Assembly: GCA_031276515.1 (NCBI GenBank)
Contig: JAISMX010000044.1
Span: 1-34,256 of the forward strand
Origin: Eubacteriales Family XIII. Incertae Sedis bacterium
GTDB lineage: Bacteria; Bacillota; Clostridia; Peptostreptococcales; Anaerovoracaceae
Direction: 5' to 3'
DNA: 34,256 nt
Every line of letters starts with the position of its first letter. The stretch's first letter is position 1. The notes beneath the pieces are model-generated. The model searched no databases, was not told the DNA's origin, and worked only from the letters and a program-made list of their open reading frames with translations. Of this stretch, positions 1 through 2,222 are shown one piece after another. Both the position numbers and the translations under genes were made by a program.

Positions 1-117
1 GACGAGAAGGAGCGGGCGCACTACCGCTCGCGCAAGATGTTCCTCATGGACATGGAGCACGCCATGGCGGTGGCGCGCGACGAGGGCCTTGAGAAAGGCA
101 TCGAACAAGGCATCGAG
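1..117 (+). repeat. Direct repeat, left copy (partner 1630-1746)
   Basis: Bases 1-117 equal bases 1630-1746 except at positions 88 and 90. The repeat is the shared part of the two Rpn-family genes and it brackets the AT-rich nuclease gene. The left copy may extend beyond the window. Recombination between the copies would delete the intervening gene; that consequence is inference. Confidence 0.9.
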
Positions 118-324
118 AAAGGCATTGAGAAAGGCATCGAACAGGGCATTGAGAAAGGCATCGAACAGGGCATCGAGAAAGGCATCGAACAGGGCATTGA
201 GGAAGGCAAGATCAAAGTTGCGAGGGCCGCGTTGGCCAAAGGTTTTTCCGTGGCCGATGTGGCTGACATAACCGGTCTCGACGAAGAAAGCGTGAAGAAA
301 CTGGAGACCGAAGCGGTCATGTGA
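1..324 (+). CDS. Rpn family recombination-promoting nuclease / PD-(D/E)XK transposase, C-terminal part (5' end outside window)
   Basis: The reading frame is open from base 1 and ends at TGA 322-324, so only the last 107 codons are visible. It begins in the segment DEKERAHYRSRKMF, typical of the region after the nuclease core in Rpn/PDDEXK_2 family proteins. It continues into a run of G-I-E-Q/K tetrapeptides (about residues 29-68 of the visible part) and a short tail containing SVADVADITGL, a usual ending for this family. The family encodes PD-(D/E)XK DNA nucleases related to transposases; the catalytic core itself lies upstream and cannot be assessed. Bases 1-117 match 1630-1746 with two mismatches, so a second copy lies 1.6 kb downstream. 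Whether this copy is intact is unknown. Confidence 0.8.
   Translation, partial: DEKERAHYRSRKMFLMDMEHAMAVARDEGLEKGIEQGIEKGIEKGIEQGIEKGIEQGIEKGIEQGIEEGKIKVARAALAKGFSVADVADITGLDEESVKKLETEAVM
85..204 (+). repeat. 12-nt tandem repeat coding for GIEQ/GIEK units
   Basis: Ten consecutive 12-base units of the form GGCATCGAACAG or GGCATTGAGAAA, the first (85-96) degenerate. They encode repeating Gly-Ile-Glu-Gln/Lys tetrapeptides, probably a charged helical or coiled-coil linker. The related copy at 1714-1761 has four units, so copy number differs between paralogues, as expected from slippage or unequal recombination. Confidence 0.9.
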
Positions 325-375
325 GGCTCTCTCTTCTGGCTGGAAATGCTGCCTCCGTCGGATGACGGGCGGTCG

Positions 376-408
376 ACTCCAACCGGCCAAAGGCCGGGGA
401 GTTTTCCT
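376..408 (+). terminator. Rho-independent terminator after the first Rpn gene
   Basis: A hairpin with arms ACTCC+CCGGCC (376-388) and GGCCGG+GGAGT (392-402), a two-base bulge and an AAA loop, followed by TTTTCCTT. It lies 52 bases after the stop codon and should end the Rpn transcript before the next gene. Confidence 0.65.
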
Positions 409-468
409 TCACGTTCGTTCAGGACGCGTCGCAGATGGCAGTCATAAATTTTGAAAGGCAGACAAATA

Positions 469-1398
469 ATGAACAGACCATCTGAACAAGAATTGAAGTC
501 ATTTTCCGCATATTATAAACAAGATACGGATTTTGCGGCGTATGCTCGTTTATTGCAATCCAAATGGCGAAAAGGAAAAGGTTATCCCATAGGAAAATCA
601 CAAAATGGAACAATATACGGTAATTATGTTGAGGAGGAATTTGCCCGGAAGAGAGGCTGTAATTTTTTGACACAAAAAATATGGGATATTGCTCGAAAAG
701 AAATGGAAATGGCAAAAACCAGAGGGGGTCTATATCAAGAATATAGGTTTATTTGCAATCTATTGACATCACAATCGATGTGCTTTAATTTGTTTGGTGA
801 ATTTTTTGAAGAAAAAAATACTTTATTAAATATATTCAACGAATTAAAACCAGGTCTAATGGATAAAATCACAGAAATTAGATTTGAATACCCTTATAGA
901 CGTGCTGATAAAAAATACCTTGGTGATCGCACAGCATTTGATGTTTTCATTGAATATGAAAAAGATGGTGAAAAATCATTTTTGGGAATTGAAGGGAAAT
1001 ACGCTGAGGCATTGCGAGAAGAATCAATGGCACAATCTGAGATTAATTACGAAAATCACATACAGTATAAACAAATAACAGAAAGTTGTGGTTTGTTTAA
1101 GCCGGAAATAATCAACGAAATAAAAAAACCTCCATATTCCCAGATGTGGCGTGATCATCTTTTATCTATTTCTCTTAAAAACAGTGAAAGTAAATATAAT
1201 AATGGGTACTTTGTCTATTTGTATCCATTCAATAATTTGGAATGTCGGACTGGAATAAAAAATTATTTGCTTTTTTTACAGGATCCCGAAAAGAGTGTAT
1301 TTGAAATATATGTCGAAGATTTAATAAGAGCAATACAAAAAAATGTAAATAAAGATTGGACAAATGAATTATGTGACAGATATATAAAGGGATTGTAG
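469..1398 (+). CDS. Putative type II-like restriction endonuclease, PGN_0703 / PD-(D/E)XK family
   Basis: A 309-residue protein. I see a likely PD-(D/E)XK core: Asp158 in TAFDVFIEY, then Glu175-Gly-Lys177 in FLGIEGKYAE (the D...ExK pattern). Upstream, YRFICNLLTSQSMCFNLFG (about residues 92-110) resembles the conserved N-terminal block of PGN_0703-like putative restriction endonucleases. By family it would cleave DNA; specificity is unknown and no methyltransferase lies beside it. ATG 469 is preferred over the in-frame TTG at 451 because GAAAGG (453-458) sits about 10 bases upstream. The gene is strikingly AT-rich (some 60-base lines are about 20-30% G+C by eye), unlike every chromosomal neighbour, which indicates recent horizontal acquisition. 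It is flanked on both sides by Rpn-family copies. The family assignment rests on recalled motif patterns, so it is moderately sure. Confidence 0.7.
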   Translation: MNRPSEQELKSFSAYYKQDTDFAAYARLLQSKWRKGKGYPIGKSQNGTIYGNYVEEEFARKRGCNFLTQKIWDIARKEMEMAKTRGGLYQEYRFICNLLTSQSMCFNLFGEFFEEKNTLLNIFNELKPGLMDKITEIRFEYPYRRADKKYLGDRTAFDVFIEYEKDGEKSFLGIEGKYAEALREESMAQSEINYENHIQYKQITESCGLFKPEIINEIKKPPYSQMWRDHLLSISLKNSESKYNNGYFVYLYPFNNLECRTGIKNYLLFLQDPEKSVFEIYVEDLIRAIQKNVNKDWTNELCDRYIKGL

Positions 1399-1485
1399 GA
1401 TTTGCTGAAAATGGCGGTACTTTTGGCAGTGCAGACTGCGTGAATCCGCATGTGAGGGGATGACGACCGACGCATTGCCGGCGCG

Positions 1486-1908
1486 GTGGTCAGGAACAGC
1501 GAGTTGCCGATATCGAGAATAAGCGAGAAACGCGAGCGCTTCGACGTAAATTGCAGGACGGAGGACGGCAGACAGATCGACGTGGAGGAGATCAAAATGG
1601 CGAGCGAACTGTTGATGAGCATAAGCCAAGACGAGAAGGAGCGGGCGCACTACCGCTCGCGCAAGATGTTCCTCATGGACATGGAGCACGCCATGGCGGT
1701 GGCGCGCGACGAGGGCATCGAGAAAGGCATCGAACAAGGCATCGAGGAAGGCATCGAACAGGGCAAGATCGAGGTTGCGAGAAACGCTTTTGCGATAGGC
1801 CTTTCCGTCGATCAAATCGAGAAGCTCACAGGCCTTTCCCGCGCGGAACTCGAAAGTCTGCGCGAATTTCGCGAACGACGCGCTCTTTCCGGCGTTGGCG
1901 CCGAGTAA
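1486..1908 (+). pseudogene. Second Rpn/PDDEXK_2 family copy, truncated and internally deleted
   Basis: The frame is open from 1456 and runs to TAA 1906-1908. The start (RNSELPISRISEKRERFDVN) and the following EDGRQIDVE match the PD-(D/E)XK core of Rpn-family nucleases. The sequence then jumps within a few residues to EIKMASELLMSISQDEKERA, which in intact members lies roughly a hundred residues further on. The N-terminal part before the core is also absent: there is no plausible upstream start, and TGA stands at 1453. I therefore read it as a nonfunctional remnant with an N-terminal truncation and an internal in-frame deletion. Four GIEx units and a family-type tail (LSVDQIEKLTGLS) follow. A short expressed protein starting at GTG 1486 cannot be excluded, but it would lack much of the nuclease domain. 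Confidence 0.7.
1630..1746 (+). repeat. Direct repeat, right copy (partner 1-117)
   Basis: Near-identical to bases 1-117 (two mismatches), within the second Rpn-family copy. See the left copy for context. Confidence 0.9.
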
Positions 1909-2057: not shown

Positions 2058-2222
2058 TACAGGGTAAATGTAATAATAGCGGAAGAGGCGCTCGCGCAGA
2101 TCGGCGAAAAAGGCTGCGCGATTCCATACGATGCCGTCGCGCGCAGGGTCGTGAAGATCGGCGCGGAGTTTGACAAGGGCGAGCGGAACATCGGGCGCCG
2201 GCTTGTGGATTTCGAACGGTAA
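2058..2222 (+). pseudogene. C-terminal remnant of an AAA-ATPase-like / PD-(D/E)XK_9 (DUF1703) protein
   Basis: A short open stretch with no start codon of its own (TAA stands at 2055-2057 in frame) encodes about 54 residues ending at TAA 2220-2222. The pattern EEALAQIGEKGCA, a Pro-Tyr pair, VVKIGAEFDKGERNIGR and a terminal VDFER resembles the last 50 or so residues of the large AAA-ATPase-like proteins carrying a C-terminal PDDEXK_9 domain. These are common multi-copy genes in gut Clostridia and Bacteroidetes. The rest of the gene is missing. The match is by eye and from memory of the family, so moderate confidence. Confidence 0.55.

Follow-up and report, generated by a model that had tools for sequence, protein, structure and literature searches.

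Phage defence may reside in a single nuclease gene, as it does in Shedu. The PDDEXK_13 family (Pfam PF20796) is widespread, yet in the literature library searched no paper turned up under the names PDDEXK_13, REase-ARP or PGN_0703. A rapidly evolving REase has been described from proposed anti-ADP-ribosylation (ARG-centred) systems and from anti-phage contexts (PMC9503650), and from name and context we infer that Pfam REase-ARP (PF22558) is the domain of that enzyme. Rpn proteins, meanwhile, have been argued to be toxin-antitoxin and anti-phage proteins for which a role as transposase is very unlikely. Their arrays have been argued to arise by tandem duplication, and Zhong et al. describe four-residue repeats as a hypervariable feature of the Rpn (RpnS) tails (PMC10327210).

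The window analysed here, 34,256 bases long, is a whole contig (G000:C93:1-34256) of a 77%-complete draft genome in 169 contigs, the one genome of its species included in the analysis. Near its start lies a PDDEXK_13 gene flanked by Rpn fragments (Table 1). Its start codon is the ATG at 469, in agreement with the aligned start of a relative from Treponema. The reading frame has a G+C content of 31.6% (24.6% at third positions), against 54-62% (73-86% at third positions) in the flanking Rpn frames, hrcA and dnaK, and in the rest of the 34 kb no block of 500 bases drops under 47%. An earlier note on this DNA had singled out a 930-base gene sharply richer in AT than its surroundings, and these values agree with it. 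The composition reflects the origin of the gene.

Table 1. Features at the left end of the window
Feature	Position	Strand	Remarks
Rpn C-terminal reading frame, copy 1	1-324	+	cut by contig start; about ten GIEQ/GIEK four-residue repeats; TIGR01784 E=2.1e-14, model 217-273
Direct repeat, copy 1	1-136	+	129/136 identical to 1630-1765; left limit at contig start
Truncated two-hairpin element copy	367-440	+	similarity 369-433; cmsearch 35.9 bits, E=5.8e-6; second hairpin replaced by AT-rich segment
Foreign AT-rich segment, maximum extent	434-1481		left: similarity to two-hairpin element ends; right: Rpn homology begins at 1482
PDDEXK_13 nuclease gene	469-1398	+	309 aa; Pfam PF20796, 2e-72; DNA match to L061 (Treponema) exactly 469-1398
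Catalytic core codons	886-999	+	E140 886-888, D158 940-942, E175 991-993, K177 997-999
Rpn relic, copy 2	1482-1908	+	lacks N-terminus; in-frame deletion of 132 codons at GGAG; four-residue repeat present four times
Direct repeat, copy 2	1630-1765	+	129/136 identical (95%) to 1-136
PDDEXK_9-like nuclease gene, C-terminal relic	2076-2222	+	PF08011 E=4e-4, below cut-off

The 309-residue product matched PDDEXK_13 with 244.4 bits (E=2e-72; curated cut-off 27 bits) over model positions 2-289 of 290. Its second-best Pfam match was REase-ARP (3.2e-35), near whole length and at half the PDDEXK_13 score. None of the NCBIfam, PADLOC and PHROG models matched the protein, and neither did any solved structure searched by sequence. 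When the protein was aligned with eight distant homologues of 25-34% identity, E140, D158, E175 and K177 proved invariant, and the same held for a second set of homologues, taken from viral contigs. The earlier note had proposed a PD-(D/E)XK nuclease with a D158...E175-x-K177 core; the family match and the invariance of these residues, at just those positions, support both proposals.

Structure prediction from the single sequence was uninformative (pLDDT 38). With the alignment of viral-contig homologues, AlphaFold returned a model with a pTM of 0.72 and a pLDDT of at least 90 at 68 residues. In this model E140, D158 and E175 are carried by the predicted strands 133-141, 157-165 and 168-176, K177 follows directly after the last of these and a helix comes next, a predicted strand order that is as expected for the PD-(D/E)XK superfamily. 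Foldseek found no significant match to the model in the PDB, where the top non-significant matches were prominently PD-(D/E)XK enzymes (Shedu, N.BspD6I, FokI, MunI and BamHI), and a viral structure library yielded nothing decisive. The case for membership of the fold thus comes more from the PDDEXK_13 match and the residue conservation than from Foldseek.

The distribution of the gene is patchy. A PDDEXK_13 gene was detected in two of the 297 genomes of the taxonomic family, the source genome included, and in none of the four congeners; in a phylum-wide sample of 398 genomes, a single further genome passed the PDDEXK_13 cut-off. The protein alone, used as query, gave no match in genome contigs; a four-sequence alignment yielded matches, and 234 candidate PDDEXK_13 stretches were confirmed in this one genome scan. 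The nearest relative found lies in a Treponema bin, with 67% amino acid identity in the tblastn segment and 70-71% over the whole length. At the DNA level the two genes align exactly from start to stop codon (469-1398), with no similarity outside, and the Treponema gene is AT-rich there too (G+C 0.28, surroundings 0.42). In the family tree the two proteins are joined with a support of 100/100, and phyla are strongly mixed within the family. The substitution rates between the two genes (dN 0.19, dS 1.14, NG86; dS is near saturation, which makes the dN/dS value rough) indicate purifying selection.

The origin of the nuclease gene is best read, from these sequence comparisons, as single-gene horizontal transfer. 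The earlier note had likewise taken the gene to be foreign, and the near-unique occurrence in the family and the start-to-stop match to Treponema bear this out. Rather than a conserved locus of matching composition, the outcome that the earlier note had set against its own reading, we found a gene absent from four congeners and at odds with its surroundings in composition. We regard this as a clean case of PDDEXK_13 transfer between distant bacteria, the source lineage and Treponema. As a separate observation, a Clostridia bin (L077) and a Latescibacterota bin (L080) that share the same CSMAG label encode very similar PDDEXK_13 proteins, a likeness across two phyla that reflects either recent transfer or binning contamination.

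Downstream of the gene come hrcA-grpE-dnaK-dnaJ and then ordinary housekeeping genes. In the three congeners with a region upstream of hrcA (G002, G003 and G004), similarity to the window ends at about 2303-2308 and other genes lie upstream, so that positions 1-2300 appear as a variable stretch with several accumulated wrecks. One of these is the PDDEXK_9-like relic, and copies of 2079-2209 occur on three other contigs of the source genome with 84-90% identity. Ahead of hrcA, at 2361-2387, the window reads TTAGCACTC-N9-GAGTGCTAA, a pattern in keeping with the CIRCE operator of HrcA. Judged from this stretch, regulation of the heat-shock operon seems normal in spite of the insertions upstream.

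Another wreck is the truncated copy of a dispersed, nearly genus-specific two-hairpin element whose full form measures about 91 or 116 bases and has six pairs with compensatory changes. When a covariance model was run on 41 genomes, five of the genus yielded between 1 and 18 copies apiece, and three other family members a single copy each. Full copies lie, for example, at 1793-1884 (-) in L155, 1570-2795 (-) in L160 and 1605-1695 (+) in L163, and copies adjoin one another on contig 71 of G004. Rfam, at gathering score, did not match the window copy; the element may be either a structured RNA or a REP-like DNA element. The AT-rich segment begins where the second half of the element should be, which places the left junction at about 434, and Rpn homology from 1482 places the right junction at or before 1481. 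A clean insertion into the element was considered and rejected, since no second half turned up on the right side of the gene. Between 400-480 and 1380-1500 there were no target-site duplications or terminal inverted repeats of at least 8 bases.

The earlier note had reported neither a methyltransferase nor another defence partner, and within the window we agree. No cognate methyltransferase gene of a type II restriction-modification system was seen in the window, which begins at base 1, and the PADLOC matches there are those expected from PolA and Mfd, both of which Pfam finds. Nor did a recurrent neighbour emerge among 78 PDDEXK_13 relatives, in which the largest neighbour cluster comprised five loci, all from Bacteroidales; this fits a self-sufficient gene. 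Among 112 genes adjoining relatives, no Pfam family occurred more than three times and most were unrelated ordinary genes. One relative (L140) adjoins a helicase matching DrmD/BrxH models, another on a Nocardioides plasmid is near drmC, and some are found on viral contigs.

Based on these findings, we postulate that the stand-alone PDDEXK_13 gene is probably a single-gene, restriction-like defence nuclease, a reading drawn from its family, its conserved catalytic residues, its foreign origin, the purifying selection on it and its solo organisation. The AT-rich gene, acquired singly by horizontal transfer, now lies among the remains of decayed nuclease genes in the intergenic space upstream of hrcA. 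The E140, D158 and E175-x-K177 residues would bind a divalent metal and cut DNA, and self could be told from non-self through recognition of modified or phage-specific DNA, or through activation during infection. The enzyme would thereby act as a one-gene, methylase-free defence, with the Rpn pieces as bystanders rather than its vehicle. The kinship with REase-ARP and the published anti-phage contexts of the latter count in favour of such a role; the lack of a significant Foldseek match and the mostly ordinary, unrelated neighbours of relatives count against it. The defence function put forward in the earlier note is plausible in that some relatives adjoin or lie near defence genes; that the protein cleaves DNA, defends its host and discriminates between DNAs is what we infer.

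The same solo organisation would also suit a self-spreading nuclease gene, selfish or toxic, that relies on homing-like cutting or encodes a toxin whose antitoxin went unrecognised, and that brings its host no defence. Its patchy occurrence, the mixing of phyla, the AT-richness in both hosts and the relatives on some viral contigs are all consistent with this. Against it stand the lack of any direct or inverted repeat of at least 8 bases between the segment edges and the defence genes adjoining or near some relatives, and we consider this explanation unlikely.

The earlier note had instead suggested a captured defence or selfish gene, a cassette lying between two copies of Rpn and excisable through their direct repeat. 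Rpn C-terminal frames do stand on both sides of the gene (TIGR01784 at about 2e-14 for both fragments), although neither is visibly intact. Copy 1 is the C-terminal part only, where the contig ends. Copy 2 aligns with the intact Rpn of a congener (G004:C182) in two pieces, of 89% and 83%, with the start missing, and no intact N-terminal nuclease domain was found in it, given this truncation and the in-frame deletion with its GGAG microhomology. The direct repeat of 117 bases with two mismatches was correctly recognised (mismatches in that part fall only at 88 and 90, and bases 1-87 match exactly), and it continues to 136 bases. As the window is an entire contig, Rpn copy 1 and the left repeat begin at a contig end, and the assembler may well have broken at the 87-base exact repeat. 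Contig 127 was considered for the place to the left of the window and rejected: the half Rpn at its end is of a different Rpn subtype and fits the beginning of contig 76. Past the repeat the two copies diverge, to 76% in the next alignable stretch, and this mosaic may stem from recombination or gene conversion.

The placement of the gene between direct repeats 95% identical favours such a cassette, as recombination between them would remove the gene, and a loss of this kind is possible in principle. The four-residue repeats of Rpn tails and the tandem duplication of paralogues (PMC10327210) nevertheless mark the direct repeat as coding sequence common to paralogous Rpn C-termini. Copy 2 is wrecked, copy 1 runs off the contig, the Treponema relative has neither Rpn nor any common flanks, no empty site was seen with one genome of the species covered, and a transposase role for Rpn is argued against in the same study. 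Rpn was therefore rejected as the vehicle of the gene, and the capture suggested in the earlier note is not supported; we hold an excisable Rpn cassette to be very unlikely. The case illustrates that direct repeats of Rpn tails can resemble transposon ends without being any. Many other matches to the Rpn model were C-terminal only (about 190-273), on contigs 14, 59 and 161 of the source genome and in G003, G005, G010 and G024; some of these are cut by contig ends, and others could be solitary RpnS-like frames. A further speculation, to which we give very little credence, is a modular defence locus kept by its repeats: the flanking Rpn C-terminal frames would still produce RpnS-like antitoxins, and Rpn arrays would serve as sites of docking and exchange where tails and unrelated nuclease genes are swapped.

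A part in an ADP-ribosylation-countering system, of the proposed kind to which the REase of PMC9503650 belongs, is very unlikely as well and was rejected: REase-ARP is the second-best Pfam match, and plasmids of Roseomonas and Pimelobacter carry distant relatives at 3-4 kb from ADP-ribosylglycohydrolase genes, but PDDEXK_13 scores twice as many bits, and no such gene was found in the source genome (77% complete), in the window or in the Pfam families matched by at least two of the 112 adjacent genes.

The single-gene defence nuclease that we favour can be set beside several known systems. Type II restriction-modification differs in its cognate methyltransferase gene, which is missing from the window. 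The Rpn fragments are members of TIGR01784/PDDEXK_2, RpnS-tail repeats included, and belong to a different PD-(D/E)XK family from the nuclease between them. Shedu, a one-gene PD-(D/E)XK nuclease, serves as a works-like comparison; it was the top Foldseek match, not significant (E=0.09), no sequence similarity to it was found, and we do not claim the protein as a member. REase-ARP is homologous over almost the whole length, with half the PDDEXK_13 score, and its system differs in the ADP-ribosylglycohydrolase partner missing here from window and genome. The closest likeness is to PDDEXK_13 itself, in the whole-length match, the catalytic residues, the size, the solo gene and the patchy spread across many phyla. 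Nothing sets the 309-residue protein apart from this family, and on its sequence we read it as a clear member and an ordinary example of a family already catalogued.
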